DNA from: a virus
Length of the DNA: 40,651 nucleotides
Virus record (IMG/VR): IMGVR_UViG_3300034158_000122
Coordinates: 1-40,651 of that record
Strand: one strand, 5' to 3'
The position numbers and the translations under genes were made by a program. Of this stretch, positions 9,717 to 33,440 are shown one piece after another (position 1 is the first letter of the stretch; every line of letters begins with the position of its first letter). The notes under the pieces were generated by a model. The model saw only the letters and a list, made by a program, of their open reading frames with translations. It had not been told where the DNA came from and made no database searches.

Positions 9717-9970
9717 ACCACCGCCTGATATCAGACATGGAGCGGAACTTGGGTTGGTGGTGGGAAGACCTTCGTGGTGCCAGTGCGCGCCTGCGTGGGT
9801 ATCAGCGCCAGCTCATCGAGTGCCGCCAGATCTCGCCACGACCACGGGCCACCATCGCGCTGACCCTGCGCCAGTGCGCAGCCGCCCGCCGGATATGTGC
9901 TCACACCACCCTCGTTATCAAGGCCCGCCGTGGCGGTCTGAGTTCACTGTTAGGTTCTGCTGCACAATGA
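9713..9970 (+). CDS. Small basic early protein
   Basis: An 85-residue Arg-rich helical protein (R-R-I-C, K-A-R-R-G-G), starting at ATG 9713 after GGGGGAG. It overlaps the gpA start by 4 bases. The basic nature could suit nucleic-acid contact, but that is a guess. No family recognised. Confidence 0.6.
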   Translation: MNHRLISDMERNLGWWWEDLRGASARLRGYQRQLIECRQISPRPRATIALTLRQCAAARRICAHTTLVIKARRGGLSSLLGSAAQ

Positions 9971-18127: not shown

Positions 18128-19893
18128 CAGTAAATCTCCATAAAGCCGGAATTGGTGCCGGTCTGCCCCTCAAGGGGCTCGTGTAAAAGGGCTTGCATGG
18201 TTGCCCAGGCAATATCGGCGTGGCTGGTCTCATCAGAGCGGCTGGCCTCGAAGGTGGGCAGCTTGCCGCTTTGGGTCACGGCGCGGCGGATGCTCATAAA
18301 CGCCTGGGCCAGATCGGTCCAACCGCTGTCAAACTCCAGTCGCCCCTTGTTCATCACATCCTGTGCCTTCATCACCATCCGCATCTTCACGTTGGGGTTG
18401 TACTGGATGGCGGTCACTGCCGGGTAAAACTGCTTCACCAGCTGATAGACCCCCTCCCCGATCCCGGTGGTATCGATGCCGATATAGGCGACGTTGTAGC
18501 GATCGCAGATGGCGCGAATGGATTTGGCCTGGGCGTCAAAGTCCATCCCCTGCCAGCGGTGGCGCTCCAACACCCGAAACTTGCCGCCGGGCACCAATGG
18601 CGGAGCCAGCACCGCGCAGCCGGCGCTGTCACCTTTGCCCCCCTTGGCCGGGTCATAGCCGATCCACACCGCCCGGTTGGCCAGCGGCCGCAAGGTGTGG
18701 GGCTTGTAGTCCTCCCACACCAGCCAGCTGTCGACCATGCAACGCTGCAGCGTCGCCAGCGGAAACAGACTCTCGGTGTCATCCATGAATTCGCACATCA
18801 ACAGGTTGCGGTATTCATCCTCGGAATACTCACTGCGCAGTTGATCCAGGTCGAACAGGTTACAGCCGCCGCGCACCGCATCCTCCACCGTGACTATCTG
18901 CCGCCACTGGCCATCGGCGCACAACTTGCCGGCAGACAAATTGGCGTGGCTCAGGTCCATCTCGACCCGGTCGGCCTTGGCCTTGCCGCGGTTAAAGTTG
19001 GCGCCAGACCAGAATCCATAAGCGGGATGAGAAAGGCTGGAGGGGGTGGAGATGTAGGTCTGGCGCCACTTCTTGTGCATCGCCATACCGGACGCCACCT
19101 TTCGAAACTCCAGAAAGCCGTGGATCCAGAAATACTCATCCATGTAGATGTTGCCGTGGTAGCTCTGGGCGGTGCGGGCATTGGTACCGAGAAAGTAAAG
19201 GTGCGCCCCGTTCGGCAGCACCATGGGGTCACCTTTGAGCTCAACCCCCTCCTCCTTGGCAAACTGGATGATGTACTGCTTGAACATGTGGGCCTGCGCC
19301 TTGCTGGCTGACAGGAAAATCTGGTTGCGCCCGGTCACCAGGGCATCAATGAACGCCTCGAAGGCAAAGAAGTAGGTCGCCCCGATCTGCCGCGATTTGA
19401 GCAGGTCGCGGATCCGGCACTCCTGCCCGGCCTGATACCAGACCCGCTGGTAATCGAACATGGTCGACTCAAACCGCTCGATGAGCCGCTCTTGCTGCTC
19501 GGGCTCGACCACGTTGCGCTCGGGCGCCTTCTTCGGCCCCTTGTTGCGGTTGGCCACCTTGGGGTTAAGGTCGGCCTCGTTGCCACCGTTGCAGTACTTG
19601 TTGACCCGGGCGATACGCTCGAGCTGGCGGCCCAGCAGGTCAATCTCCTTGAAGTCGCCGCCGCTCTTGGTCTCCTTCATTACCAGCTGGATCATGCGCG
19701 CCTCGATGGCGCTATCCACCCGGTCTATCGGTTTGATGTCCTCCCAGCCGTCGCGTTTCTTCCAGGTCGAGACGGTACCCTCCGGCGTTTGCAGCAACTC
19801 GGCAATGGCGCGCAGCGGGTACCCCTGAAAGAACAGGTACATGGCCTGCCGTCTGGGGTCGAGATGGGGAAAGATGATGGGTGCTGTTGTCAT
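18127..19893 (-). CDS. P: Terminase large subunit gpP (ATPase and nuclease)
   Basis: A 588-residue packaging motor. An N-terminal helix-turn-helix (about 27-46), an ATPase with a Walker-A-like segment at about 166-173 (K-S-R-Q-I-G-A-T) and Walker B Asp252-Glu253 (IYMDEYFW), then a nuclease domain with Asp414 (IGYDPAKGGKGDSAG) and Asp474 (IGIDTTG). It matches P2 gpP in size (590). It is the first gene of the leftward late operon. No ribosome site precedes ATG 19893, and a late dyad is centred 57 bases upstream, so its mRNA may be leaderless. Confidence 0.95.
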   Translation of the reverse strand: MTTAPIIFPHLDPRRQAMYLFFQGYPLRAIAELLQTPEGTVSTWKKRDGWEDIKPIDRVDSAIEARMIQLVMKETKSGGDFKEIDLLGRQLERIARVNKYCNGGNEADLNPKVANRNKGPKKAPERNVVEPEQQERLIERFESTMFDYQRVWYQAGQECRIRDLLKSRQIGATYFFAFEAFIDALVTGRNQIFLSASKAQAHMFKQYIIQFAKEEGVELKGDPMVLPNGAHLYFLGTNARTAQSYHGNIYMDEYFWIHGFLEFRKVASGMAMHKKWRQTYISTPSSLSHPAYGFWSGANFNRGKAKADRVEMDLSHANLSAGKLCADGQWRQIVTVEDAVRGGCNLFDLDQLRSEYSEDEYRNLLMCEFMDDTESLFPLATLQRCMVDSWLVWEDYKPHTLRPLANRAVWIGYDPAKGGKGDSAGCAVLAPPLVPGGKFRVLERHRWQGMDFDAQAKSIRAICDRYNVAYIGIDTTGIGEGVYQLVKQFYPAVTAIQYNPNVKMRMVMKAQDVMNKGRLEFDSGWTDLAQAFMSIRRAVTQSGKLPTFEASRSDETSHADIAWATMQALLHEPLEGQTGTNSGFMEIY

Positions 19894-19936
19894 GGCGCCA
19901 GTCTACCCAGCCGCTACTACCCCAAACGCCCCACTG

Positions 19937-19963
19937 CCAGTGTGTAGCGCCATCACACACTGG
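19937..19963. promoter_or_regulatory. Late activator dyad between P and O
   Basis: CCAGTGT-N13-ACACTGG, an inverted repeat centred at 19950 in the gap between the divergent P and O genes. In P2 one such region serves both late promoters and binds Ogr. The flanks and spacing are the same as at 33326 and close to those at 28213. Confidence 0.8.
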
Positions 19964-20042
19964 CCCCGGATTGCACGATCCCGCCGCTCACCCAGACCAT
20001 AACCGCGACATCACTACCCAATTACCAAAGGGATCCCAGCAC

Positions 20043-20846
20043 ATGCCTAAGTCCAAATTCTTCCGTGTTGCGGTTGAGGGGGGCACCACCGACGGTCGCG
20101 CCATCACCCGCGAATGGATTGAGCAGATGGCCCAGCGCTACAACCAGGCCACCTATGGCGCACGGGTCAATATTGAGCATATCCGGGGCCTCGACCCCAA
20201 CGGCTTGTTCAAGATGTACGGCGACATCACCGCCGCCAAGACCGAAGAGGTCACCATCGAAGGGGAACAGCGGCTGGCCCTGTTCGTCCAGATTGACCCG
20301 ACGCCGGAGCTGATCGCGCTGAACAAGAAGCGCCAGAAGGTCTACACCTCCATCGAGATCCACCCCAACCTGAACGACAAAGGGGCCTACATGATGGGGT
20401 TGGCCGTGACCGATAGCCCGGCGAGCCTTGGCACCGAAATGCTGCAGTTCTGCAGCAAGGCCGCGGTCAACCCGTTGGCCGACCGCAAATACCATCCGGA
20501 ATGCCTGTTTACCGAAGCCCTCGAAACCGTCATCGAGTTTGAAGATGAGCAGGAGAAAGGCCCGGGCCTGCTTGAACGGATCAGCGCCATTTTCACCAGT
20601 CACAAGCAGCAATCGACCGCCGATTTCAGCGAGGTGCATCAGGCCGTGGAAGCCGTGGCCAAAGAGGTGACCAGCCTCGATACCGACCTGCAAACCAAGT
20701 TCAACGAACTGACGGCCCGGCAAACGGCGACCGCCAACGCCCTGGCCGACCTGACCACCCAGCTCGAGCGCCAGGAAGATTTCAGCCACAAGCGCCAGCC
20801 TGCCACCGGTGACGATGGCACCAAGCCAACCAACACCGATTTTTAA
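20043..20846 (+). CDS. O: Capsid scaffold and maturation protease gpO
   Basis: A 267-residue protein with an N-terminal serine-protease part and a C-terminal scaffold helix. Likely catalytic residues are Asp17 (TTDGRAI), His46 (NIEHIRG) and a Ser in KVYTSIEI (Ser103), by analogy with the Asp/His/Ser triad of P2 gpO. Residues about 195-250 form the coiled-coil scaffold (V-E-A-V-A-K-E-V, L-T-T-Q-L-E-R-Q). It guides assembly of gpN and trims capsid proteins. First gene of the rightward head operon; ATG 20043 fits the P2 alignment, not the longer frame that would overlap P. Confidence 0.92.
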   Translation: MPKSKFFRVAVEGGTTDGRAITREWIEQMAQRYNQATYGARVNIEHIRGLDPNGLFKMYGDITAAKTEEVTIEGEQRLALFVQIDPTPELIALNKKRQKVYTSIEIHPNLNDKGAYMMGLAVTDSPASLGTEMLQFCSKAAVNPLADRKYHPECLFTEALETVIEFEDEQEKGPGLLERISAIFTSHKQQSTADFSEVHQAVEAVAKEVTSLDTDLQTKFNELTARQTATANALADLTTQLERQEDFSHKRQPATGDDGTKPTNTDF

Positions 20847-20858
20847 GGGACCCCGATA

Positions 20859-21917
20859 ATGCGCAACGATACCCGTCAGCAATTCGAGCAGTACACCAGC
20901 CAACTGGCGAGCCTGAATGCCGTCAGCTCGGCCATGGTGCAATTCAGTGTCGAGCCCAGCATCCAGCAAAAGCTGGAAACCAAAATGCAGGAGTCCGTCG
21001 ACTTCCTCAGCATGATCAACATCGTGCCGGTGGATGAACTCAAAGGGGAAAAGGTCGGCATCGGCATCAATGGCACCATTGCCTCTCGCACCGATACCAG
21101 TGGCGGCAAGGCCCGCGTCCCGTTCGACCCGACCGGACTGCAAAACACCAAATACGAGTGCGAAAAGACCAACTACGACACCAGCATCGGTTACGCCAAG
21201 CTTGATGCCTGGGCCAAGTTCAAAGACTTCCAGATCCGCATTCGCGATGCCATCGTCAAGCGCCAGGGCCTGGACCGCATCATGATCGGCTGGAACGGTA
21301 AACTTGCCGCGAAAGACACCGATCGCGTCCAGTTCCCCATGCTACAAGACGTCAACATCGGCTGGATTGAGCACACCCGCCATGATGCTCCCGCCCAGGT
21401 AATGAGCGAAGGGGATGCGGGCACCGGCCATATCTACATCTACCAGCCCAAGAGTGAAGCCGACACCAAAGAGGGGGATTACGGCAACCTCGACGCCCTG
21501 GTGTTCGATCTGGTCAACAGCAAGATCAAACCCTGGTACCAGGACGACACCGATCTGGTGGTGATCTGCGGTCGCAAACTGCTGGCCGACAAATACTTCC
21601 CCATCCTCAACGAGACCCGAGACAACCAGAACAAGCTGGCCGGTCAGGTGCTGGTGAGCCAGAAGCAGATCGGCGGCATGCTGGCGATCCGCGTCCCCTT
21701 CGTGCCGGAAGACACCCTGATCGTCACCCGCCTCGACAACCTCTCCATCTACTGGCAGATCGGCGGCCGTCGTCGCCACCTGGAAGAGCAGCCGAGCCTC
21801 GACCGCATCGTCAACTGGGAATCCTCCAACGATGCCTACGTGGTCGAGGATTACGACTGCATCGCCGTCGCAGAAAACATCACGCTGGGCGCCAAACCTG
21901 CGCCTGCAGGCGGTTAA
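20859..21917 (+). CDS. N: Major capsid protein gpN
   Basis: A 352-residue P2-class major capsid protein. The N-terminus (T-R-Q-Q-F-E-Q-Y) is the region cut during P2 maturation; G-T-I-A-S-R-T-D-T and the later E-D-T-L-I-V-T-R-L-D-N-L-S-I-Y-W-Q segment with E-S-S-N-D-A-Y-V-V-E-D-Y are typical of the family. Length is close to P2 N (357). It lies 12 bases after O and 9 before M. Confidence 0.95.
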   Translation: MRNDTRQQFEQYTSQLASLNAVSSAMVQFSVEPSIQQKLETKMQESVDFLSMINIVPVDELKGEKVGIGINGTIASRTDTSGGKARVPFDPTGLQNTKYECEKTNYDTSIGYAKLDAWAKFKDFQIRIRDAIVKRQGLDRIMIGWNGKLAAKDTDRVQFPMLQDVNIGWIEHTRHDAPAQVMSEGDAGTGHIYIYQPKSEADTKEGDYGNLDALVFDLVNSKIKPWYQDDTDLVVICGRKLLADKYFPILNETRDNQNKLAGQVLVSQKQIGGMLAIRVPFVPEDTLIVTRLDNLSIYWQIGGRRRHLEEQPSLDRIVNWESSNDAYVVEDYDCIAVAENITLGAKPAPAGG

Positions 21918-21926
21918 GGAGCCACG

Positions 21927-22688
21927 ATGACACCTGCACAACGACACACCGCCCGCATCATGGCCGCCCTGCAAGGGGCGGCCAATCCCGAGCAGGATCG
22001 CGCCGCCGCCAACCAGTACGAACTCCAGCTGATGCAGCTGGCCGAGCACCGTCGCACCCTCAAGGGTATCCAGAGCCTCGAGCGCAAGATTGACGCCAAA
22101 CGCACCATGCTGGCCACCTACACACCGTGGATTGATGGCCTGCTGGCCGCCGATCGCGGTGGTCAGGATGACGTCATGGTGACAGTGATGCTGTGGCACC
22201 TCGACACCGGCGATCTGGCTGGCGCCCTGCCAATGGCCGACTACGTGATCCGCCACGGCCTCAATACCCCGGACCAGTACGAACGCACCGCCCCCACCCT
22301 CATCGCCGAAGAGGTGGCCGACACCGCCATCAAGCTGCAAGAGGCGGGCAATGGCCCATCCCTGCCATTGCTCAGCAGCTACATGAACATGCTGGCTGAC
22401 TGCGACATCTTCGACCAGGTGCGCGCCAAGTTGCACAAGGCGGTGGGCCGATCCTGTTATGCCGAAGGGCTCAAGGAGCAAGCGGTCGACCACTACCGCC
22501 GCGCCATCGAGCTGCACGACAAGGTGGGCATCAAGCGAGAGCTGGAAGATCTGGTGCGCGAGATCAAAAAGGATAAAGCCGCCGCCGGTCAGCCCGCCAA
22601 CGAACCGGCACCGCAGCCGGACGCAGAGCCTCAATCCGAATCACAGCCACCCGAACAGCCTGACCCCGCCCCCGGCGAGGCCCGCTAA
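21927..22688 (+). CDS. M: Terminase small subunit gpM
   Basis: A 253-residue protein of the P2 gpM family: an N-terminal coiled-coil part (about 20-60), then the D-x-L-L-x-A-D-R-G-G-Q-D-D-V-M-V-T-V-M-x-W-H-L-D segment typical of the family. It recognises cos and works with P. The C-terminus (about 215-253) is Pro/Glu/Gln-rich and probably disordered. GGAG precedes ATG 21927. Confidence 0.92.
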   Translation: MTPAQRHTARIMAALQGAANPEQDRAAANQYELQLMQLAEHRRTLKGIQSLERKIDAKRTMLATYTPWIDGLLAADRGGQDDVMVTVMLWHLDTGDLAGALPMADYVIRHGLNTPDQYERTAPTLIAEEVADTAIKLQEAGNGPSLPLLSSYMNMLADCDIFDQVRAKLHKAVGRSCYAEGLKEQAVDHYRRAIELHDKVGIKRELEDLVREIKKDKAAAGQPANEPAPQPDAEPQSESQPPEQPDPAPGEAR

Positions 22689-22796
22689 CCGAGCGAACCC
22701 CGCACCCTGGGCGGCTCGGGCCTGACGAATGCCAGCGGCATACCAGACGGCCCGACCACCGCCCAACATGCGGCGCAACCTCACATCAGGAGCACC

Positions 22797-23273
22797 ATGA
22801 GCACCGGATTTTTAGCCACCAACCCGACCCCGGCCGCCACAGAAGAGGGCGACATCACCAGCGCCCCCTTCTGGCCGGCGATCTCGCTCTGCGCGCTGCG
22901 CGACACCGTCCGGCTCGATGGCACCGTCACTACCGCCCGCCTCAGCCATGCGGTGATCGACGCCATCACCAGCGTCAACCGGGATCTGGCCCAGTGGCGC
23001 AGCGCCAGAGAAAGTGAAGGTCACGCCACCCTGGCCGCCGTACCCGCCGAGCCCATCAATGGCGAATCGACATACCTGCACAGCTACCGGCGCGCCGTCT
23101 ACGCCATGACCCGCGCCAATCTGCTCGAGCGCTACACCGACTACAGCGCTACCGGCGATGGCGTCAAAGGGGCCGATGCCAAAGAGATAAGTTCGGATGA
23201 CCTCTATCGCGACACCCGGTTTGCCATCCGAGACATCATCGGCACCACCCACACCACGGTGGAGCTCATCTGA
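22797..23273 (+). CDS. L: Head completion protein gpL
   Basis: A 158-residue head completion protein: F-W-P-x-I-S-L early, R-L-S-H-A-V-I-D-A-I-x-S-V-N-R-D-L, and Y-R-R-A-V-Y-A-M-T-R-A-N-L-L-E-R-Y-T-D-Y match the P2 gpL family. It closes filled heads at the portal. AGGAG precedes the ATG. A 108-base gap before it has no gene. It overlaps X by one base. Confidence 0.9.
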   Translation: MSTGFLATNPTPAATEEGDITSAPFWPAISLCALRDTVRLDGTVTTARLSHAVIDAITSVNRDLAQWRSARESEGHATLAAVPAEPINGESTYLHSYRRAVYAMTRANLLERYTDYSATGDGVKGADAKEISSDDLYRDTRFAIRDIIGTTHTTVELI

Positions 23274-23476
23274 TGCAACTGCGCAGCCTGCAGGGCGACA
23301 CCCTCGATCTCATCCTGTTTCGTCACTACCGCTACACCGCAGGCATCACCGAGCAGGTGCTCAACCTCAACCCCGGTCTGGCAGCGCTCGGCCCCATCCT
23401 GCCGACCGGCACCCTCATCAACATGCCAGCGGCCCCCACTCAAGCCGAACAGCCGCTGATCCAGCTATGGGACTGA
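23273..23476 (+). CDS. X: Tail protein gpX
   Basis: A 67-residue protein with the P2 gpX layout: G-D-T-L-D-L-I-L near the N-terminus and L-N-P-G-L-A-x-L-G-P-I-L-P-x-G-T-x-I-x-M-P, a LysM-like fold that helps form the tail. Its length equals P2 X. It overlaps the L stop by one base. Confidence 0.9.
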   Translation: MQLRSLQGDTLDLILFRHYRYTAGITEQVLNLNPGLAALGPILPTGTLINMPAAPTQAEQPLIQLWD

Positions 23477-23504
23477 CTGTCATGCGACAAAAGAGAACAC
23501 CGAC

Positions 23505-23735
23505 ATGAGCCGCCTCGACGACGAACTCGAACGACTGGCCAACATCAGCGAACAGCAACTGGCTGCCCGCATCCATGCCGCCCGCATTGCGGGCACTGGC
23601 CCCCACTACTGCATCGACTGCGACGACCCGATCCCGCAAGAGCGCCGCGAGGCGATCCGGGGCTGCGAGCGCTGCGCCGACTGCCAGACCATCCACGAAT
23701 TCCAACTCGCCCGCCACTGCGGCAGCAAACGATAG
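23505..23735 (+). CDS. TraR/DksA-type zinc-finger protein
   Basis: A 76-residue protein with Cys36-x2-Cys39 and Cys54-x2-Cys57, the C-terminal zinc finger of the TraR/DksA family, after a short helix. TraR-like proteins enter the RNA polymerase secondary channel and mimic DksA with ppGpp. The acidic tip (D-D-x-L near the N-terminus) is in keeping with this. Situated among late genes between X and the holin, it could bias host transcription during late growth. Confidence 0.85.
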   Translation: MSRLDDELERLANISEQQLAARIHAARIAGTGPHYCIDCDDPIPQERREAIRGCERCADCQTIHEFQLARHCGSKR

Positions 23736-23744
23736 GAGAGCACG

Positions 23745-24116
23745 ATGCCAGAACCGATTTCCTCCAGCGCCGCAACCAGCACCCTCACCGGTCTGGCCTT
23801 GCTGTTCACCCTGCCCGGGGTGGATCCCTCCGTGGTGCTCGGCGCGCTCACCGGCGCGGTGCTGTTTATCTCGGCCGCCGAAGAGCAGGGACGCCTGCGC
23901 CGGATTGCCCTGTTTGTCGCCTCGTTTATCAGCGGCCTGCTGCTGGCCGGCTTTACTTGCCAACTGCTGGAGGTACTGCTGCCCGCCAGCGTCCAGGTCA
24001 GCAATGCGATCGGCTCGCTGATCGCCTCCGCCATGATGGTGCGCCTGCTGCAGCTCATCATGCGCAATCAGGATCGGCTACTTGAAGCCTTGTTTAACAA
24101 AAGGGGGCAACCATGA
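23745..24116 (+). CDS. Putative holin, first membrane protein of the lysis set
   Basis: A 123-residue protein with three hydrophobic segments (about 14-26, 31-44 and 54-80) and a charged C-terminus (N-Q-D-R-L-L-E-A-L-F-N-K-R). Position directly before a second membrane protein and the endolysin points to a holin. It overlaps the next start by 4 bases. Confidence 0.65.
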   Translation: MPEPISSSAATSTLTGLALLFTLPGVDPSVVLGALTGAVLFISAAEEQGRLRRIALFVASFISGLLLAGFTCQLLEVLLPASVQVSNAIGSLIASAMMVRLLQLIMRNQDRLLEALFNKRGQP

Positions 24117-24454
24117 TCCCGACCACTCCGACCGGTGTGTTTATCTACACCGCCCTTTACGCCCTGATCTGCGCCGCCATCTTCCTGCGGGTCATGCTGT
24201 TTGACCGCAAAGGTGGCGAGTATCGCGCCCTACCCGCCTGGATGGCGTGGCTGCTCTGCGTACTGTCAGGCTCCATTCCGCTGCGCTTTTTGTTTGGCGG
24301 CATTCCGGTGCCAGACCCGGCCTCCTTCGGGCTTGCACTCTTCCTGCTGTGCGCAGTGCTCAACACCCGCGGCTCGGTGCACCACCTGCTGCCCCGGGGC
24401 AAACCCTCCAGCACCGGCCATGCCCGGGATATTTACCGGAGGTACCAGCCATGA
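24113..24454 (+). CDS. Putative holin or antiholin, 3TM family
   Basis: A 113-residue protein with three membrane segments (about 8-27, 42-60 and 69-85) and a basic C-terminal tail. It resembles putative three-TM phage holins. Two adjacent small membrane genes before the endolysin suggest a holin/antiholin pair; which is which cannot be told from sequence. Confidence 0.65.
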   Translation: MIPTTPTGVFIYTALYALICAAIFLRVMLFDRKGGEYRALPAWMAWLLCVLSGSIPLRFLFGGIPVPDPASFGLALFLLCAVLNTRGSVHHLLPRGKPSSTGHARDIYRRYQP

Positions 24455-25272
24455 GCCTGAAAAAAGGGGATACCGGCACCGCCGTGGCAGACCTGCAACG
24501 CCGCCTCACCGCCGCCGGTTATCCGGTGGCAGTCGATGGCTGGTTTGGTGAGGCAACCGAGCAGGCGCTGATAGCCTTCCAGCGGGATTACATGATCGCC
24601 GCCATCGGTCAGGCGGGCCCGCGTACCCTCGCCGCCCTGCTCGTCAGTGAGCGCGGCAACCAGCTGACCATCAACCACATGCAAGCTGGTGCCGATCTGC
24701 TGGACGTGCAGCTGGCCACCATGGCTACCGTTGCCCAGGTCGAGAGCATCGGCGAAGGCTTCACCCAGGCCATGCGCCCGGTGGTGCTGTTCGAGCGGCA
24801 TGTGTTCTACAAGCAGCTCACCAAACATCTGGGCAAGGCGGCCGCCGACCAGTTGGCAGTCAATTACCCCAACCTGGTCAACCCCAAACGCGGCGGCTAT
24901 GCGGGCGGCGCAGCAGAGTGGGAGCGGCTGCAACTGGCCATCAGCCTGCATCGGGACGCGGCCATCGAGTCGGCCAGCTGGGGCATGTTCCAGATCATGG
25001 GCTACCACTGGCAACCGCTGGCCTTTGCCTCTGCCAGCGACTGGCAGGCGGCTATGCAGCGCAGCGAGGTCGAACACCTCACCGCCCTGTGCCGCTTTAT
25101 CCAGCAAGACCCCGCCATGCACAAGGCGCTGCAGGGGCGAAAGTGGGCGGATTTCGCCCGCCGCTACAACGGCCCGGCGTTTAAGGAGAACGACTACGAC
25201 ACCAAGCTGGCCAAGTGGTTTGCGCACTTTACCAAGGTCTATCAGCTGCAGGAGGTGGCCAATGTGGCGTGA
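24451..25272 (+). CDS. Endolysin: peptidoglycan-binding domain plus N-acetylmuramidase
   Basis: A 273-residue lytic enzyme. Residues about 3-62 are a PG_binding_1 domain (G-D-T-G-x-A-V-x-D-L-Q-x-x-L, D-G-W-F-G-x-A-T). Residues about 88-265 match the N-acetylmuramidase family (DUF3380/PF11860): V-E-S-I-G-E-G-F with likely catalytic Glu98, L-F-E-R-H-V-F, S-A-S-W-G-M-F-Q-I-M-G and F-A-R-R-Y-N-G-P. No signal peptide, so it needs the holin. This modular enzyme is unlike P2 gene K. ATG 24451 has GGAGG; the longer frame upstream overlaps the holin gene. Confidence 0.92.
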   Translation: MSLKKGDTGTAVADLQRRLTAAGYPVAVDGWFGEATEQALIAFQRDYMIAAIGQAGPRTLAALLVSERGNQLTINHMQAGADLLDVQLATMATVAQVESIGEGFTQAMRPVVLFERHVFYKQLTKHLGKAAADQLAVNYPNLVNPKRGGYAGGAAEWERLQLAISLHRDAAIESASWGMFQIMGYHWQPLAFASASDWQAAMQRSEVEHLTALCRFIQQDPAMHKALQGRKWADFARRYNGPAFKENDYDTKLAKWFAHFTKVYQLQEVANVA

Positions 25273-25735
25273 TCTGTTGGGCTCCCCCCTCAGCTGGTTG
25301 CTGCTGGCGTTGGTTGTCGCTCTTGGTGGCTGGGGCTGGTCAGCCCGCTCAGCGGCCAAGGCCAAAGGGGACGTCACCACCCTGCAAACCAGTCTCAAGG
25401 CAGCCAACGAGAAAACCAGAGAGGCCCAGCGGCGCGAACAGCTTAAAGAGACCGCCATCGCCACCCTCACCCGGGAACTGACCACCCAGGCACAAGCGGC
25501 GCAGCAGCTGCAGGGCCAGCTCGACCAGCTGGCGCAGGCCGCCGCCACCCGCGCCGACACTATCAAGAGGCTCAAACGTGAAAATACCGAACTCAAGGCT
25601 TGGGCTGATCGCCCTCTGCCTGATCCTGTTATCAGGCTGCTCCAGCGCCCCGCCCTCACCGGCGCCGCAGATTATCAGGCTCACCTGTCCGGCCCCGAGC
25701 CCCTGCCAGCTGCAGCCGGCGGCACCACTCAATAA
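25262..25735 (+). CDS. lysB: Inner-membrane spanin (LysB/Rz-like)
   Basis: A 157-residue protein with one N-terminal membrane anchor (about 9-27) and a long periplasmic coiled coil (about 36-115), the i-spanin design. It overlaps the endolysin by 11 bases at its start. The o-spanin gene begins inside its 3' third in another frame, the classic nested arrangement. The two would fuse the inner and outer membranes in the last step of lysis. Confidence 0.82.
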   Translation: MWRDLLGSPLSWLLLALVVALGGWGWSARSAAKAKGDVTTLQTSLKAANEKTREAQRREQLKETAIATLTRELTTQAQAAQQLQGQLDQLAQAAATRADTIKRLKRENTELKAWADRPLPDPVIRLLQRPALTGAADYQAHLSGPEPLPAAAGGTTQ

Positions 25736-25868
25736 CGGTGACTTGCTCGACCAACTGAGCCAGACCGAGGCCGCCTGGGCCAGTTGCGCCGCCAAGGTCG
25801 ATAGCCTCATCACCTGCCAGACACGACAACAAGGGAGCGAAAATGGAAAAGCCAAAACAGATCCGTGA
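25578..25868 (+). CDS. lysC: Outer-membrane lipoprotein spanin (LysC/Rz1-like)
   Basis: A 96-residue lipoprotein. The signal peptide ends in the lipobox L-L-S-G-Cys21; the mature part is Pro-rich, as in Rz1 proteins. The start is GTG 25578, inside lysB in another frame. It runs 133 bases beyond lysB and overlaps gene R by 26 bases. Confidence 0.82.
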   Translation: MKIPNSRLGLIALCLILLSGCSSAPPSPAPQIIRLTCPAPSPCQLQPAAPLNNGDLLDQLSQTEAAWASCAAKVDSLITCQTRQQGSENGKAKTDP

Positions 25869-26313
25869 GGTGCTGACCCGCTGCGTGCCGCACCTCAAGA
25901 CCAACCCGGACAAGCTGCACATCTTTATCGCCCCAGGCAATATCGAAAGCACCGGCGCCCGCTCCCTCTCGTTCGAGTGGCAATACCCCCTCACCATCGG
26001 TATTGAAGACTTTGCGGGCCACCCGGATCAGATCATGGTGCCGCTGCTGGCCTGGCTGCGCCAACACCAACCCGAGCGGATGACCAACGACGAGCAGCGC
26101 AAAGATGGCATCACCTTCGAGGCCGAATACCTCGCCAACGACCTGATGGATCTCATCATCACCGTCAAGCTGACCGAGCGGGTCAAGGTATGGCAGAACG
26201 AACAGGGGATAGGCTGGGAGCATCTGCCAGAGCCACCGGAAGACCCTTATGACGGCATCACCTGGGAGCTCTTTATCAACGGGGAACCGCAGCCATGGCC
26301 ACCGACGACCTGA
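25843..26313 (+). CDS. R: Tail completion protein gpR
   Basis: A 156-residue protein of the P2 gpR tail completion family: K-P-x-Q-I-R-E-V-L at the start, N-P-D-K-L-H-I-F, F-E-W-Q-Y-P-L-T-I-G-I-E-D-F-A-G-H-P-D and F-E-A-E-Y-L. Length matches P2 R (155). The start overlaps lysC by 26 bases and the end overlaps S by 19. Confidence 0.92.
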   Translation: MEKPKQIREVLTRCVPHLKTNPDKLHIFIAPGNIESTGARSLSFEWQYPLTIGIEDFAGHPDQIMVPLLAWLRQHQPERMTNDEQRKDGITFEAEYLANDLMDLIITVKLTERVKVWQNEQGIGWEHLPEPPEDPYDGITWELFINGEPQPWPPTT

Positions 26314-26744
26314 GCCGGCTGGTCAGCTGGGCCGATGCTCTGCTGGCCAGCATGACACCGGCCGCCCGCCGGCAACTGATGGGGGAAATGGCCCGCAACC
26401 TGCGCGCCAGCCAGAGCAAACGGATCAGGGCCAACATCCAGCCGGATGGCAGCCCCATGACTCCGCGCAAGCCGCTCAAAAAGCTGGCGAAAAAACGTGG
26501 CACCACCCGCCGCAAGATGTTTCAGCATCTGGTCAGCCCCCGCTGGCTCAAGGCGACAAGCACCGAACATCAAGCCGTGGTCGAGTTTGTCGGCTCGGCC
26601 AACCGCCTCGCTACCATTCATCAGTACGGCCTCAAAGACCGTATCAAGGGCCGCGAGATCAGCTATCCGGCGCGGGAATTATTGGGGATTACCACTGACG
26701 AGATAGAACTGTTGGAAGATCTGTTACTAGCTCGGTTGGCCTAA
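26295..26744 (+). CDS. S: Tail completion protein gpS
   Basis: A 149-residue protein of the P2 gpS/virion morphogenesis family: R-Q-L-M-G-E-M-A-R-N-L-R-x-S-Q, I-R-A-N-I-Q-P-D-G-S-P-M-x-P-R-K and the ending I-S-Y-P-A-R-E-L-L-G-I-T. Length equals P2 S (150). In P2 it is followed directly by the V operon; here 1.5 kb of AT-rich DNA intervenes. Confidence 0.92.
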   Translation: MATDDLSRLVSWADALLASMTPAARRQLMGEMARNLRASQSKRIRANIQPDGSPMTPRKPLKKLAKKRGTTRRKMFQHLVSPRWLKATSTEHQAVVEFVGSANRLATIHQYGLKDRIKGREISYPARELLGITTDEIELLEDLLLARLA

Positions 26745-26808
26745 TTGAAATTTGCTGGAGCACATCAATAAACCATATTATTTAATAACCTCACTAATTA
26801 ATCCTGTG

Positions 26809-27873
26809 TCAGGATGAATAAACTCTTTTTTTAGATGCGTGTTTTTCAACTATTTTCTTCCCAAAATTGATAGCGGGTAACTCCACGTATTTATAAGAAA
26901 GAAAACCAAGAACCAGACAAATACTCAGCGAAAGCAAAGCATTTATATTGTGAGTAAAATTGGGGAAATAGTGTGCTACAGTTTGTTGAATCATAAAACC
27001 ATATATGTATATCCCATACGAAATATCATATTTCATTTTCAGCATTAAAACAAACTTCAAACTGGCAATTGTTATTAATGATATCGCAACAGTTAAGTAA
27101 AATAAATATTCAAATGCAATACTATCTTTTAAAATGACACTTGCACATATAAATGCAAACATTACCTTTGAATTAATAAAAAACACATCTTTCCATATTG
27201 CAAATAAACAACCAACAGAGAAATACATTGGTAAATAAAGCATTGCTGGATTTACCCCTAGCGTATTAGTTAACCAAGGCTGTCTTGTTACGACTGATAA
27301 TATCACAACAACACATGCTAGCGTTGCAAAAAACTTATTTCTAAGAAAGCCCACAAGGCCTGCGAACAAAAGAAAAATATAGCATATAACTTCCCATCTC
27401 AGCGTCCATAAAGACCCATTGACTGAATTTGCGTAGTGATTGTCTCCAAAAACGCCGGGTAGCTCATATCTAGTATCCAGCAACATATTACTGACAAAAT
27501 AGCCATATGTTTTTACGTTTAAAAAATAATCAAAAAAAGTAAGATTAGTAACTAATGGACCTATCAAAAACACGGTCAATAAAATCATTATAAATAATCC
27601 GGGGAATATTCTGAAAAATCTTGAAGATATATAGCCTATGAAGTTATGGCTTTTCATCAAGCTATTACAAACCAGCATGCCACTAATAAAGAAGAACATT
27701 GCTACAGATAAACCACCAGATGAGACAAACCCGACAAGCGACCTTATCAAATCTTGTTTTGGATCATCACCAGTTATAGTATAAGCATGATAATAAATCA
27801 CCATACTAGAAAGTAGAGTTCTGATTAAGGTTAAATTGTTGTTTTCATGCTCTAAAAAACTGGAAATTTTCAC
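26809..27873 (-). CDS. Acyltransferase-3 (AT3) membrane protein, cargo gene
   Basis: A 354-residue integral membrane protein with about ten hydrophobic segments. The start N-L-T-L-I-R-T-L-L-S-S-M-V-I-Y-Y-H-A is the AT3 signature (conserved R and H in helix 1), and F-F-F-I-S-G-M-L-V, S-R-F-F-R-I-F-P-G and S-L-W-T-L-R-W-E complete the pattern. AT3 proteins transfer acyl groups, often O-acetyl, to surface sugars, and several phage forms alter O-antigen. It is strongly AT-rich, opposite in direction to the flanking late genes. The start is GTG 27873 with AGGAG. Role in lysogenic conversion is inferred. Confidence 0.85.
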   Translation of the reverse strand: MKISSFLEHENNNLTLIRTLLSSMVIYYHAYTITGDDPKQDLIRSLVGFVSSGGLSVAMFFFISGMLVCNSLMKSHNFIGYISSRFFRIFPGLFIMILLTVFLIGPLVTNLTFFDYFLNVKTYGYFVSNMLLDTRYELPGVFGDNHYANSVNGSLWTLRWEVICYIFLLFAGLVGFLRNKFFATLACVVVILSVVTRQPWLTNTLGVNPAMLYLPMYFSVGCLFAIWKDVFFINSKVMFAFICASVILKDSIAFEYLFYLTVAISLITIASLKFVLMLKMKYDISYGIYIYGFMIQQTVAHYFPNFTHNINALLSLSICLVLGFLSYKYVELPAINFGKKIVEKHASKKRVYSS

Positions 27874-28212
27874 TAACTTACTCCTAACATATTATTTTTA
27901 TCAATACATGCACTTACATTATTAAATTCATAATATCTATATGGTTGTCTTTAGCGCCAAGAAATTTCCGCATTATAGCAACTCAATATTATGCAACGAA
28001 TCCTATGACTTGACGTTGTATAGTCTGATTCTTCTATCATACCTAGCTACAGAGCTCACCGCGATAACGATCCGTCTGAAATGCCGAGCAATGCACTAAA
28101 GCCCATCAACAAAACAAACACATGCCATTGATTTTTAAGAACTTATTTCTCGTGGCGAGCATGATAAACATCATGCTTATACAGACTAGCGAACAAAAGT
28201 ATGCCTTTATCA
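27874..28212. other. AT-rich leader of the acyltransferase gene
   Basis: About 340 bases between the divergent acyltransferase and V. The left two thirds are AT-rich and must hold the leftward promoter of the acyltransferase. A 7-bp perfect inverted repeat GCATGAT (28159-28165) / ATCATGC (28170-28176) might be an operator or mark the edge of the insert. No gene is credible here. Confidence 0.45.
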
Positions 28213-28239
28213 TCAGTGTGTAGTCCCGTTACACATTGA
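28213..28239 (+). promoter_or_regulatory. Late activator dyad upstream of V
   Basis: TCAGTGT-N13-ACATTGA, centred at 28226, the same element as at 19937 and 33326 with small changes in the right arm. It sits where P2 has the Ogr-dependent V promoter. A poor -10 (AACAAT, 28270-28275) follows. Confidence 0.75.
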
Positions 28240-28281
28240 TCCTTAATCGCCTTCCCCTCCATTGCCCAAAACAATGGCTCC

Positions 28282-28833
28282 ATGCAACCGACCCCAACCG
28301 AACTCAAACGCCTGATCGACAACCTGATCCGCATTGGCACCGTCACCGCCGTGCGCTCCGGAGAATGTCGCGTCAAAACCGGCAACATCACCACCAACTG
28401 GCGGCCCTATACCACAGACAGGGCCGGGGCTAACCGTACTCGCCACCGCCTGAGCCTGGGCGAGCAGGTCATTTTGCTCTCGGTCAGCGGCGATCTGCGC
28501 AATGCCTATATCGTCGGCCGCCTCAATGCTGACAGCTTCCCCGAGCCGTTGGCCGAAGATGACAACCCGGATCTCGATCGCACCGAATACGCCGATGGCG
28601 CCATCATCGAATACGACCCTCAAACCGGAGCACTCAACGCCACCGGCATCAAGCAGGCCCACATCGCTGCCAGTGTCAGCGTAACACTCGATACCCCCAA
28701 GACCATCTGCACCAACCTGCTGCAGGCCAAGCGCCTCACCTGCAACACCGCCAAGGTGGGCGACATCGAAGTGACAGAACACGGCCATGAAAAGGTGCAG
28801 CCGGGTGACGGCAAATCAGGAGGCCCGGTATGA
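28282..28833 (+). CDS. V: Baseplate spike gpV
   Basis: A 183-residue central spike at the tail tip. The OB-fold start (L-I-R-I-G-T-V-x-A-V, G-E-C-R-V-K-T-G), D-R-A-G-x-N-R-T, the G-E-Q-V-I-L-L-S-V-S-G-D-L segment and the D-G-A-I-I-E-Y-D beta region match P2 gpV. His167-x-His169 near the C-terminus fits the iron-binding tip motif of the P2 spike. There is no ribosome site before ATG 28282, and the late dyad is centred 56 bases upstream. Confidence 0.93.
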   Translation: MQPTPTELKRLIDNLIRIGTVTAVRSGECRVKTGNITTNWRPYTTDRAGANRTRHRLSLGEQVILLSVSGDLRNAYIVGRLNADSFPEPLAEDDNPDLDRTEYADGAIIEYDPQTGALNATGIKQAHIAASVSVTLDTPKTICTNLLQAKRLTCNTAKVGDIEVTEHGHEKVQPGDGKSGGPV

Positions 28834-29189
28834 ACTGGTTCGGCATGAATGCCGCCAATGGCCGCGCCATCAGCGCCACCGACCACATTATCCAGTCGGT
28901 GCGCGACATCCTCATCACCCCGGTGGGTTCGCGGGTGATGCGCCGCGACTACGGTAGCGAGCTCTTTTACCTCATCGACATGCCCCAGCATCAAGCCACC
29001 CGCCTGCGCCTGATGGCCGCCACCGTGCAAGCCCTTATCAACTGGGAACCCCGCATCACCGTCACCCGCGTCGATGTGCTTGGCGGCGGCCTGGATGGCG
29101 CCTTAACCATCGAGCTCACCTGGCAGCGCAAAGATGGTGGCGTGTTGGAGTCTGCAACCATCCCCATATCCACAGGAGCCGCCCAGTGA
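28830..29189 (+). CDS. W: Baseplate wedge protein gpW
   Basis: A 119-residue protein of the gp25/gpW baseplate family: D-H-I-x-Q-S-V-R-D-I-L-I-T-P-V-G-S-R-V-M-R-R-D-Y-G-S is the family hallmark. It overlaps V and J by 4 bases each. Confidence 0.93.
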   Translation: MNWFGMNAANGRAISATDHIIQSVRDILITPVGSRVMRRDYGSELFYLIDMPQHQATRLRLMAATVQALINWEPRITVTRVDVLGGGLDGALTIELTWQRKDGGVLESATIPISTGAAQ

Positions 29190-30067
29190 GCACTGTAGAC
29201 CTGACCCAGCTCCCACCACCGGAAGTCGAGGAAACCCTCAACTTCGAGGCCATCTTCGCCAAGCGCAAAGCCACCCTGATCAGTTACTACCCGGCAGACC
29301 AGCAGGCGGCCATTGCTGCCACGCTGGAACTTGAATCCGAACCGCTCAACAAGCTGCTGCAAGAGAACGCCTATAACGAAATGATCCTGCGGGCCCGCAT
29401 CAACGATGCCGCCAAGCAGACCCTGCTCACCTTTGCCAGTGGCACCACCCTGGACCATGTCGCCGGTGAGTACGAAATCAAACGCCTGCTGGTCACCCCG
29501 GGCGATCCATCAGCAACCCAGCCCATCGAGCCGGTGTATGAATCTGATGACCGCCTGCGCATGCGCTGCCAAATGGCTTATGAGGGCATGGCAACGGCGG
29601 GCCCGGTCAATGCCTACAAGTTTCACGCCCTCTCGGCCAGTGCCGAGGTGGCCGATGTCGCCGTCGACAGTCCCACCCCGGGCACCGTCAGAGTGACCAT
29701 CCTCTCACCGGCAGGCCAGCCGAGCGCCGACACCCTCAATCTGGTCGAGCAGGAGCTATCTGCCGAAGACGTTCGCCCGCTCTGCGATCTGGTAGCAGTC
29801 GAACCCGCCCAGATCAAACCCTATGCCGTTGATGCCACCCTCAACGCCATCGGCCTGGGTAAAGAGCAGGCCATTGCTGCCGCGAAAGATGCCATGGCCA
29901 AAACAGCCGCCGCTTACTACCGGGTCGGGGCCACCGTCCCGCTTTCCGCCATCTATGCCGCCCTGCACCAGCCGGGGATCGACAGCGTCACCCTGCGCGC
30001 GCCGCTGGCCGATGTCACCTGCAGCAAGCAGCAGGCCGCCAAACTCACCACCCTCCACCTCGACTAA
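29186..30067 (+). CDS. J: Baseplate assembly protein gpJ
   Basis: A 293-residue protein of the P2 gpJ/baseplate J family: L-P-x-P-x-V-E-E-T-L-x-F-E-A-I, L-E-S-E-P-L-N-K-L-L-Q-E-N-A-Y-x-E-M, then G-T-T-L-D-H-V-A and D-D-R-L-R-M-R. Length is near P2 J (302). Confidence 0.93.
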   Translation: MSTVDLTQLPPPEVEETLNFEAIFAKRKATLISYYPADQQAAIAATLELESEPLNKLLQENAYNEMILRARINDAAKQTLLTFASGTTLDHVAGEYEIKRLLVTPGDPSATQPIEPVYESDDRLRMRCQMAYEGMATAGPVNAYKFHALSASAEVADVAVDSPTPGTVRVTILSPAGQPSADTLNLVEQELSAEDVRPLCDLVAVEPAQIKPYAVDATLNAIGLGKEQAIAAAKDAMAKTAAAYYRVGATVPLSAIYAALHQPGIDSVTLRAPLADVTCSKQQAAKLTTLHLD

Positions 30068-30077
30068 GGACACCACT

Positions 30078-30479
30078 ATGGCAAACGCCCTCTATGACAA
30101 AGGCCGCGAGAAGTTTCTCACCGGCGCCATCAATGCCAGTGCCGACACCCTCAAGTGTGCCCTGCTCAAGAGCACCTATTCCCCAACCCTCGCCAGCGAT
30201 GAGTTTTACAGCGGGATCTCGGCCCATGTGGTCGGCACCCCGCAGACCCTCACCAGCAAAACCGTGGCCGCTGGCGTGCTCGATGCGGCCGATGTCACCT
30301 TCACTGCGGTGCCAACCGCCAACGTCAACTACTGCGCCATCTACAAAGACACCGGCAACGCCGCGACCAGCCCGCTGATCGCCCTGTTTGATACGGCGGC
30401 GGGCCTGCCGGTCAGCACCAACGGCGGCGACATCATCATCGCCTGGGATAACGGCCCCAATAAGATCTTCAAGCTCTGA
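30078..30479 (+). CDS. Phage virion protein, not present at this place in P2
   Basis: A 133-residue beta-rich protein starting M-A-N-A-L-Y-D-K-G-R-E and ending W-D-N-G-P-N-K-I-F-K-L, a form I recall from hypothetical structural proteins of several phages. AAGGA precedes ATG 30078; the longer frame overlaps J. It lies between J and I, so a baseplate or fibre-related part is likely. The stop overlaps the next ATG (TGATG). Confidence 0.7.
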   Translation: MANALYDKGREKFLTGAINASADTLKCALLKSTYSPTLASDEFYSGISAHVVGTPQTLTSKTVAAGVLDAADVTFTAVPTANVNYCAIYKDTGNAATSPLIALFDTAAGLPVSTNGGDIIIAWDNGPNKIFKL

Positions 30480-31894
30480 TGGCAACCCTCTATCCCGTCT
30501 GGCGCGGGTCGCTCACCTATCACGATGGTGCCCTGTCACATGAAGGGGCGGCCCTCTATCGGGGCACCGTGCAAGGACCGGATGATCCGGCGCCCGACGC
30601 CATTGCCGGGGTCAATGTCGGCCTGACAATCGCAGGGATAGAAGCAGGCCAAGCCGGGATGGCATCGCTCACTCAGTGCGCCAAGCCAACGGGGATCAGC
30701 CAGTTTGCAGCCGGGGCCAACAAGCTGGCCAGCCGCGCCAAGGCCATCGCTATCACCGATGGCGCACAGGGTGATCCAGCGACGACCATCCGGGCCACGG
30801 TTGCAACAATGGGCGATCTGCTCGCCATGGGGGCGGCTGACATGTCAACACAGATAACCCTTGTCGGGCTTGATGCGGGGATTATCGGCACGGCGGGGGT
30901 AAGAACCCGGCTCGGTACCGGCGGATTACAGCCTGATGCCATCGAGGTGCCGACCATTCAGCAACGGCTGGCTCCTGCCGGGTTCGATCTCGGCGCTATC
31001 GGCAGCCACAAGGCCAAGGTGCGACAGACCATCGGTGATCTGGCTGACAGTCAGCAAGGTGAGCCATTGCTGAAAACCAAGCTGGCGCAAGCGGCAACCG
31101 CCTTTACCGGCGCCATGGGCACACCGATCGCCAAGTACGCCCAGATCATCTACCCGATGGCACCTGCCCTGCCAGCAGCAACCCAGCCAGCCCTGACCAT
31201 CACCCTGGCACACGATGGACTTGAGCCCCCATTGGTAAGCCCGTTCACCGCCATCACTCGCTTGGCTACCCAAGGGGTCGATGCCGGTGGCATGGGATCG
31301 CACAAGGTGCATCGCCTGCCACTGGCAACCCCAGCAACCCGGGATCTGCTGCCCCCCTCTGCAACCCGACTGGAGCACCTGACTGCCGTCACCTTGGCCT
31401 ACAACCTGACCCCGGAGCTCATCACCTCCACCCGCTTTGCAGACACCTGCCCAGCGCCGTTGCTGCCCTGGCTGGCATGGGCCCGCTCGGTGGACTGGTG
31501 GGAACTGGCAGAATCGGAAGACCAGCAACGAGCGCTCATCAAAGCCTCGTTCCGGTTGCATCAGCGCAAGGGAACCCCATGGGCCATCAAGGAGGCGCTG
31601 AACGTGCTGGGCTTTGGTGACAGCACCATCATCGAGCGCGCCACCGGCCGCCGCTATGACGGCACCCTCAGCTACAACGGCAACGAACCCCACGGCGATC
31701 CGACCCGCTGGGCGGTCTATCGGGTCATCCTGACCCGCCCGGTCACCACCGAACAGGCCAACCGCATCAAGCGCCTGTTGGCAGAAATGGCCCCAGCCCG
31801 CTGCCACCTCTCCGCGCTCGATTACACCAGGGCGCCCGTTACCTACAACGGCGCCGCAACCTACAACGGCAACTACAACCACGGAGCCTCGTGA
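30479..31894 (+). CDS. I: Tail protein I with a long repeat-bearing N-terminal extension
   Basis: A 471-residue protein, against about 176 in P2 I. Residues about 300-450 match tail protein I (P-L-L-P-W-L-A-W-A-R-S-V-D-W-W, K-G-T-P-W-A-I-K-E-A-L). Residues 1-30 (L-T-Y-H-D-G, L-Y-R-G) resemble the C-terminal tail (L-S-Y-N-G, V-T-Y-N-G, A-T-Y-N-G). Between lie four copies of G-[ILFV]-[DE]-[AL]-G-x-x-G at 53-60, 130-137, 168-175 and 266-273. The extension may form a fibre-attachment arm; that is inference. Confidence 0.82.
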   Translation: MATLYPVWRGSLTYHDGALSHEGAALYRGTVQGPDDPAPDAIAGVNVGLTIAGIEAGQAGMASLTQCAKPTGISQFAAGANKLASRAKAIAITDGAQGDPATTIRATVATMGDLLAMGAADMSTQITLVGLDAGIIGTAGVRTRLGTGGLQPDAIEVPTIQQRLAPAGFDLGAIGSHKAKVRQTIGDLADSQQGEPLLKTKLAQAATAFTGAMGTPIAKYAQIIYPMAPALPAATQPALTITLAHDGLEPPLVSPFTAITRLATQGVDAGGMGSHKVHRLPLATPATRDLLPPSATRLEHLTAVTLAYNLTPELITSTRFADTCPAPLLPWLAWARSVDWWELAESEDQQRALIKASFRLHQRKGTPWAIKEALNVLGFGDSTIIERATGRRYDGTLSYNGNEPHGDPTRWAVYRVILTRPVTTEQANRIKRLLAEMAPARCHLSALDYTRAPVTYNGAATYNGNYNHGAS

Positions 31895-31895
31895 T

Positions 31896-32828
31896 ATGGC
31901 GAATTTACAAGAGGTCGTCAGCTGGGAGGCTGGCATCTACCAACTCGAAACCGGTGATCCGGTACTGGGTGGCCCGGGCGGCATCTCCAACAAGCAGGCA
32001 CAAGCGCTGGCCAACCGTACCGCCTACCTGAAAAAACACGTCGATGATATCGAAGGGGGCAACACGGCGGCGGGCAAGGCCAACAAGCTCAGCACCGCCC
32101 GCAATATTGCCCTGGCTGGCGATGTGACCGGTCAGGCGGCATTTGATGGCAGCGGCAACATCACCATCACCGCCACCTATAAAAACTCGGGGGTCGTGGC
32201 GGGTACCTATCGCTCGGTCACCGTCGATGCCAAGGGCAACATCACCGCCGGCAGCAACCCCACCACCCTGGCGGGCTACGGCATCACCGATGCGGTTTCA
32301 TCAACGCAATATGCCACTGAGGCAACGAGAGGCATCGCGCCAGTAGCCACACAGGCAGAAGTAAATACCGGCAGTGACGACACTAAATTCGTTACCGCCA
32401 AGAAGTTGTTTGCATGGGTTAAGCAGGCATCAGAAACGGTACTCGGGATGATGAAAGTGGCCACCCAAGCACAAACCAATGCGGGATCAGCCGATGATGT
32501 GGCCATTACCCCGAAAAAGCTGCGGTTTGGCTTCTCAATCCTGCTGGATAACAACGGCTATATCGTTACCCCATCATGGATGGGGGGATGGATGCTGGCG
32601 TGGGGTACAGGCGTTATCCCGCCAAATAGCCAAGCGGTGACCCTGACCTACGCCTTGGCATTTCCGACCAAAGTGCTGGGCGGTGGGGCTTTCCATAACA
32701 ACGGTACCGTTCCCGCATTCACCCTGGATGCTAACACCAGAGTATCGACCACCCAGATTGCCATTAAATCAAGTGCCATGACGGCAGCAGGGGCCATCGG
32801 CGTGAACTACATCGCCATCGGCTACTAA
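31896..32828 (+). CDS. H: Tail fibre protein gpH
   Basis: A 310-residue receptor-binding fibre, shorter than P2 H (669). The N-terminus (about 15-60, G-D-P-V-L-G-G-P-G-G-I-S-N-K-Q-A-Q-A-L-A-N-R-T-A-Y-L-K) is a common fibre attachment region; the middle holds L-A-G-D-V-T-G and V-T-V-D-A-K-G-N-I-T-x-G repeats typical of fibre shafts; the last 90 residues (W-M-L-A-W-G-T-G, ending V-N-Y-I-A-I-G-Y) resemble gp53-like fibre tips. It sets host range. Confidence 0.88.
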   Translation: MANLQEVVSWEAGIYQLETGDPVLGGPGGISNKQAQALANRTAYLKKHVDDIEGGNTAAGKANKLSTARNIALAGDVTGQAAFDGSGNITITATYKNSGVVAGTYRSVTVDAKGNITAGSNPTTLAGYGITDAVSSTQYATEATRGIAPVATQAEVNTGSDDTKFVTAKKLFAWVKQASETVLGMMKVATQAQTNAGSADDVAITPKKLRFGFSILLDNNGYIVTPSWMGGWMLAWGTGVIPPNSQAVTLTYALAFPTKVLGGGAFHNNGTVPAFTLDANTRVSTTQIAIKSSAMTAAGAIGVNYIAIGY

Positions 32829-32839
32829 AGGAGGACGAC

Positions 32840-33247
32840 ATGTATCAATACTCACCCTCAACCAAAGGGTTCTATCTGGTCGGATTAAGTGTCCACATTC
32901 CCACCGATGCCATCAAAATCAGTGATGAAACATACCAACAGCTGCGCGAAGGCGAATCACAAGGGCTGGTCATCTCCATCAGCAACACGGGTCAACCGGT
33001 ACTGACATCTCCGCCCCCACCGACAGAACAGCAGTTACTTGAGCAGGCCATGCAGATACAACAGCAGAAGCTCAAAGAGGCATCCGTGCAGATGGAGCCC
33101 CTAATCTATCTGGATTCATTGGGGCAACTTTCAGCCCAAGAAACAGAGGTCCTGCGTCAATGGCGCCAATACACGGTCGATGTCAGCAGGGCTAATCAGC
33201 AACCAGATTGGCCAAGCCATATCACTTGGCCAGTCAAACCGGGCTAA
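32840..33247 (+). CDS. G: Tail fibre assembly chaperone gpG
   Basis: A 135-residue protein of the Tfa/gpG family: starts M-Y-Q-Y-S-P-S-T-K-G-F-Y, has D-A-I-K-I-S-D-E-x-Y-Q-x-L, a Gln-rich helix and a C-terminal R-Q-W-R-Q-Y-T-V-D-V-S-R and P-D-W-P region. It folds or trimerises the fibre coded just before. AAAGGAGG precedes the ATG. Confidence 0.88.
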   Translation: MYQYSPSTKGFYLVGLSVHIPTDAIKISDETYQQLREGESQGLVISISNTGQPVLTSPPPPTEQQLLEQAMQIQQQKLKEASVQMEPLIYLDSLGQLSAQETEVLRQWRQYTVDVSRANQQPDWPSHITWPVKPG

Positions 33248-33266
33248 CCCCTCATCTCATCACACA

Positions 33267-33290
33267 CCCCGCCCTGTGCGGGGAGTCTCG
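33267..33290 (+). terminator. Weak hairpin at the end of the V-G operon
   Basis: A 6-bp GC stem (33267-33272 with 33278-33283) with only a poor T tail. It lies 20 bases after the G stop, where the V operon should end. Confidence 0.45.
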
Positions 33291-33325
33291 TTACTGCCGC
33301 CCGTCAGCACATTGTCACCGCTGTT

Positions 33326-33352
33326 CCAGTGTATCTACGCCAGATACACTGG
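33326..33352 (+). promoter_or_regulatory. Late activator dyad upstream of FI
   Basis: CCAGTGT-N13-ACACTGG; the two arms pair perfectly over 11 bp with a 5-base centre (33337-33341). It sits 102 bases before FI, where P2 has the Ogr-dependent F promoter. Confidence 0.8.
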
Positions 33353-33440
33353 CCGCCGCTCGCCTGTCATCCCCAGCCCCTGCATCCTGACCCTGCTCGC
33401 ATCACATGCACCAAGCTCCGTCCGGACAACAGGAGAACCT

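Follow-up and report, generated by a model that had tools for sequence, protein, structure and literature searches.

Late gene region and dyads of the window

The window (the whole stretch of DNA that was analysed, 40,651 nt) is a P2-like virus record, whose nearest named phage is Aeromonas phage vB_AsaM_LPM4 (Piscesmortuivirus) with 80% identity in the late head-gene region. Prophages encoding a gpP 87-99% identical to that of the window are found in Aeromonas veronii, sobria, eucrenophila, molluscorum and tecta. Three dyads are located in the gap between the divergent genes P (-) and O (+), ahead of V and ahead of FI (Table 1). The first-pass annotation had described three matching dyads in exactly these gaps, and both the sites and their positions were found as it had described them.

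Table 1. Coordinates of the dyads, the predicted promoter elements and the genes discussed in the text.
Feature	Position	Strand	Remarks
Ogr/Delta zinc-finger protein, 74 aa	7587..7811	+	Pfam PF04606 Ogr_Delta, E=3e-17; putative dyad-binding activator
gpP terminase ATPase	18127..19893	-	ATG 57 bp from dyad centre; no Shine-Dalgarno; predicted leaderless
-10-like hexamer TAGACT, P promoter	19900..19905	-	45 bp from dyad centre
Dyad CCAGTGTGTAGCGCCATCACACACTGG (CCAGTGT-N13-ACACTGG)	19937..19963	.	centre 19950; predicted operator common to the divergent P and O late promoters
-10-like hexamer GACCAT, O promoter	19995..20000	+	45 bp from dyad centre
gpO capsid scaffold	20043..20846	+	ATG 93 bp from dyad centre; Shine-Dalgarno present; leadered
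Dyad TCAGTGTGTAGTCCCGTTACACATTGA (TCAGTGT-N13-ACATTGA)	28213..28239	+	centre 28226; predicted V late promoter operator
-10-like hexamer AACAAT, V promoter	28270..28275	+	44 bp from dyad centre
gpV baseplate spike	28282..28833	+	ATG 56 bp from dyad centre; no Shine-Dalgarno; predicted leaderless
Dyad CCAGTGTATCTACGCCAGATACACTGG (CCAGTGT-N13-ACACTGG)	33326..33352	+	centre 33339; predicted FI late promoter operator
-10-like hexamer CATCCT, FI promoter	33383..33388	+	44 bp from dyad centre
gpFI tail sheath	33441..34619	+	ATG 102 bp from dyad centre; Shine-Dalgarno GGAG

The 27-bp pattern YCAGTGT-N13-ACAYTGR matched exactly at these three sites and at no others in the window, where about 0.002 matches are expected by our own arithmetic, and the reversed control of the pattern gave no match in the window; a background of many copies elsewhere was not seen. 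The bare TGT-N13-ACA motif was not above chance in the window (5 observed, 7.3 expected), and the same holds for the count of bare TGT-N12-ACA. Symmetric 27-mers of any kind with at least 10 pairs were in modest excess (14 in the window versus 6.7 under a Markov background), and symmetry alone is therefore weak evidence. The palindromes of the window exceed P2's own sites in length and perfection, and at the FI dyad, which has perfect arms of 11 bp, the symmetry extends past TGT/ACA. The P/O dyad is conserved at the same place in Aeromonas-type relatives.

When up to two mismatches were allowed, the 27-bp pattern gained one site (9944-9970, overlapping the start of gene A), which was rejected as a fourth operator and is probably a chance match, because comparison with seven distinct relatives showed no conservation of it. 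A perfect 27-bp palindromic hairpin at 147-173, AAGAAGGCCCCACA-TGTGGGGCCTTCTT, is terminator-like and was rejected as a related element, being unrelated to the dyads.

A scan of IMG/VR for CCAGTGT-N13-ACACTGG returned at least 119 stretches. Among the 119 matches listed, 63 carry homologues of the P2-like genes of the window, three of them weakly, leaving about 60, and in those 63 nearly all homologues adjoin the dyad at P, V or FI. The P and V starts lie at constant distances from the CCAG dyad among these 63 stretches.

Several further genes were observed in the window. An acyltransferase-like gene (PF01757; 26809-27873, - strand) is inserted between the O operon and V, directly upstream of the V promoter, where it occupies the place of orf30 in P2. 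A DksA/TraR-type zinc finger gene (23505-23735, +) is located within the late head/lysis operon, and the LPM4 annotation has one in the same place. The prophage also carries a UmuC-like Y-family DNA polymerase gene (PF00817; 12981-14324, -), a putative abortive-infection protein near the repressor region (PF16872, putAbiC; 3939-4970, -) and a Sel1-repeat protein (15009-16697, +) with an N-terminus weakly PtuA-like in PADLOC (E=8e-5).

Promoter geometry

The spacing between the dyads and -10-like hexamers was analysed in eight promoter-by-clade sets (P, V, O and FI, each in Aeromonas-type and Dobby-type phages). In all eight, the best-scoring offset of the hexamer xAxxxT was +44 or +45 from the dyad centre; at the FI promoters of the Aeromonas set, a second offset scored equally well. 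In a column permutation allowing for relatedness, the pooled peak was strong at V (1/200) and FI (9/200) and was not significant alone at P (23/200) or O (68/200); the weight of the -10 argument therefore lies in the recurrence of the same offset.

In the P2 record, transcript starts are marked 55-56 bp from the activator sites, and the V start is the V ATG. By analogy with P2, and because a -10-like hexamer stands 44-45 bp away, the transcription start in the window is predicted to lie about 56 bp away from the centre of the dyad. Each of P, O, V and FI is preceded by a dyad centred about 55 bp from this predicted start, the arrangement of Ogr/Delta late promoters. P2 and 186 share with the window the same four genes, an activator placed some 55 bp ahead of the start and one site for the divergent P and O, whereas their sites differ in sequence: GTTGT-N12-CCA at P/O and F of P2/186 and TTGT-N11-ACAA at V of P2, as compared with CCAGTGT-N13-ACACTGG in the window. 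Pseudomonas phage Dobby (Citexvirus) resembles the window in having TGT-N13-ACA at all three places with the same -10 offset, and differs in its half-site (TTGTA) and Ogr type (RMRIRSSEG).

The Ogr protein

The first-pass annotation had also noted that the phage codes for an Ogr/Delta zinc finger, which the Pfam match confirmed (Table 1); the motif CX2CX22CX4C is matched exactly. An Ogr was encoded in 17 of the 17 motif-bearing IMG/VR records of more than 28 kb that were searched. A structure model, built from a reduced alignment with four rows left out, has three strands and a pLDDT of 86. No fold in the PDB matched the model at E below 0.001; ZPR1 and the zinc-ribbon repressor NrdR were the strongest of the weak hits, and we therefore make no claim on docking of Ogr to DNA. 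A sequence search for solved structures likewise gave no Ogr relative.

Spacing of the half-sites

The consensus stated for P2 is TGT-N12-ACA (PMC3931495), and the first-pass annotation had suggested that the extra base, together with the conserved CCAG/CTGG flanks, may define a different specificity class. With respect to the extra base this was not upheld. All three sites of the window have N13 and not the 12-base spacer of the P2/186 type, and the enterobacterial P2/186 branch speaks for a class defined by N13: of the 25 distinct sequences upstream of O in this branch, 16 have N12 (8 with ACA at the end and 8 with CCA) and none has N13. In our survey of P2-like loci, however, TGT-N13-ACA preceded P in 122 of 164 distinct sequences, V in 110 of 135 and FI in 24 of 26, versus 8, 6 and 0 distinct sequences with N12. 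N13 is also already published for the late promoter motif of the Ralstonia phages phiRSA1/phiRSY1, TGTTGT-(X)13-ACAACA (PMC5694545); these phages share with the window four late promoter regions and an Ogr homologue, while their half-site is TGTTGT and that of the window CAGTGT. Moreover, the spacing accompanies several unrelated half-sites and Ogr types (TTGTA, as in Dobby, GGGTGT and CCAGTGT). That N13 itself marks a distinct specificity class is thus improbable. Since it is the majority spacing in the survey and published for phiRSA1/phiRSY1, TGT-N13-ACA is ordinary among P2-like phages, and it is N12 that sets the enterobacterial P2/186 branch apart.

Half-sites vary with the Ogr type in Aeromonas-type phages

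The half-sites were compared with the Ogr proteins of 48 phages. Phages with more dissimilar half-sites tended to be more dissimilar in Ogr (r=0.61) and in gpP (r=0.70); family-wide, the partial correlation between half-site and Ogr was weak (r=0.12, 6/2000 permutations). In the 17 phages of the Aeromonas type, whose gpP proteins share at least 87% identity, half-site difference correlated with that of Ogr given gpP (r=0.57, 0/2000 permutations), and half-site with gpP given Ogr gave r=-0.02. G041 (36.9 kb) has exactly three GGTGT...ACACC (GGGTGT) dyads and G043 (66.6 kb) exactly three TTGTA...TACAA (GTTGTA) dyads, in both cases at P/O, V and FI and together with an Ogr type of their own. Where the half-sites switch jointly at all three promoters, gpP stays 88-91% identical. 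The pairing seen in G041 was also present in a prophage of an Aeromonas MAG (L441 with L467). A fourth half-site version, GCCATTGTGTAA, was observed at P/O in two partial records of the Aeromonas type (L168 and L171) and also at V in L168; no Ogr to pair with it was found in them.

This covariation rests on few independent Ogr replacements. LPM4 has CCAGTGT-N13-ACACTGG dyads at P/O, V and FI that are nearly identical to those of the window, and differs in its fixed inner bases, TGTATC, and in its Ogr, which is 47% identical over the full-length alignment. With only 52% identity across the zinc-finger region, Ogr of the LPM4 type still goes with CCAGTGT, so that Ogr divergence alone is no predictor of the half-site. 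Because half-sites follow the Ogr type in phages whose late genes hardly differ, the part of the specificity-class proposal that concerned the CCAG/CTGG flanks finds partial support, and the flanks look like an Ogr specificity class. At Ogr residues 18-19, [T/N/Q/I/V][R/K] ahead of M20 accompanies CAGTGT and R[D/Q/P] accompanies other half-sites. As the independent events are few, we put this forward as a hypothesis only, in which these residues would be a candidate specificity position.

The dyads might instead bind another regulator of the host or the phage, such as a repressor or a nucleoid protein, with the positional match to Ogr promoters being secondary. The greater length and perfection of the palindromes relative to P2's sites would agree with this, but the joint switching of half-sites with the Ogr type at three promoters while gpP hardly changes, and a dyad to -10 spacing that fits the activator geometry mapped in P2, argue against it, and we regard it as quite unlikely. 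RNA hairpins or terminators, which the long perfect arms, above all at FI, might suggest in place of protein-binding DNA, are very improbable, as the dyads lie about 56 bp upstream of the predicted starts, lack a T-run, have a conserved outer half-site common to the promoters, and at P/O serve divergent promoters.

Position, geometry and covariation are concordant, so that the dyads are likely late-promoter operators with Ogr as the likely activator. The Ogr-dependent late promoters predicted by the first-pass annotation agree with all three lines of evidence. We are highly confident in assigning the dyads as Ogr operators of four late promoters in a P2-like, Aeromonas-related prophage.

Predicted leaderless transcripts of P and V

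Of 115 distinct P regions, 112 had an in-frame start codon, nearly always ATG, at a distance of 54-58 bp from the dyad centre. The ATG chosen as the start stood at 56-58 bp in 107 of 111 P regions and in 103 of 103 V regions; the search ranges were preset (40-75 bp for P and 45-70 bp for V), so that the informative part is the tightness within the range. In relatives the V start is located 56 bp from the dyad centre, and in Dobby the ATG of both P and V is 57 bp from it, resembling the window. A Shine-Dalgarno sequence of at least four bases was rare at P (8% of regions) and V (2%) and common at O (95%). Since start codons lie 56-58 bp from the centre and lack a Shine-Dalgarno, the P and V mRNAs are predicted to be leaderless across the family.

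A leaderless gene in P2 is stated in a passage of PMC4633059, which cites the 1985 P2 late-promoter paper, and a leaderless V is already known for P2; V of the window, with its start codon at the predicted transcript start, is like that in the P2 record. P has a leader of 23 nt in P2, whereas in the window the P ATG is at the predicted start. No report of P as a second leaderless operon was found in the open-access literature searched.

The annotated GTG start of gene P in Dobby (L005, 5587-5607) lies upstream of the predicted transcript start. Seven codons further in there is a conserved ATG, at 57 bp from the centre of the dyad, which is the likelier start; many relatives are alike.

For FI, a Shine-Dalgarno was found in 100% of the Aeromonas set and in 0% of the Dobby set, in which FI is not leaderless either. 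In Dobby (17690-17730) and Dobby-type relatives FI has a leader of about 30 nt without Shine-Dalgarno, and this leader carries a conserved inverted repeat, GCCTGTGCAGTG...CACTGCACAGGC, that extends from near the predicted transcript start to just ahead of the ATG.

Proposed model of late gene activation and implications

We infer a mechanism in which Ogr would bind to every one of the 27-bp palindromes, probably as a dimer whose subunits each contact one CAGTGT half-site, the CCAG/CTGG flanks representing the Ogr-specific half-site. P and O would share one operator, while V and FI would have one each. Centred about 56 bp upstream of the start, Ogr would recruit RNA polymerase to a poor -10 (xAxxxT) at a distance of 44-45 bp. 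The start point would coincide with the start codon at P and V, probably giving leaderless mRNAs, and the O and FI transcripts would have leaders with ribosome-binding sites. The dyads very probably represent the Ogr late-promoter system already known, in a clear form whose operator half-site is a variant.

For the family, this yields a precise promoter model, with the -10 placed at +44/45 from the dyad and the start about +56 from it, that corrects where genes begin and from which conserved leaderless P and V mRNAs are predicted. We think it fairly probable that in most P2-like phages the P and V operons are leaderless, with the Ogr promoter fused to the start codon, that O and FI are leadered, and that Ogr and its three sites co-evolve as exchangeable specificity sets. 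The Ogr proteins paired with differing half-sites in near-identical phages form a natural series, in which a poorly understood mode of DNA recognition may be decodable by swaps. If the leaderless operons are true, translation of the packaging genes (P: terminase, portal) and of the baseplate genes (V) would respond to the state of the ribosome unlike that of the capsid and sheath genes.
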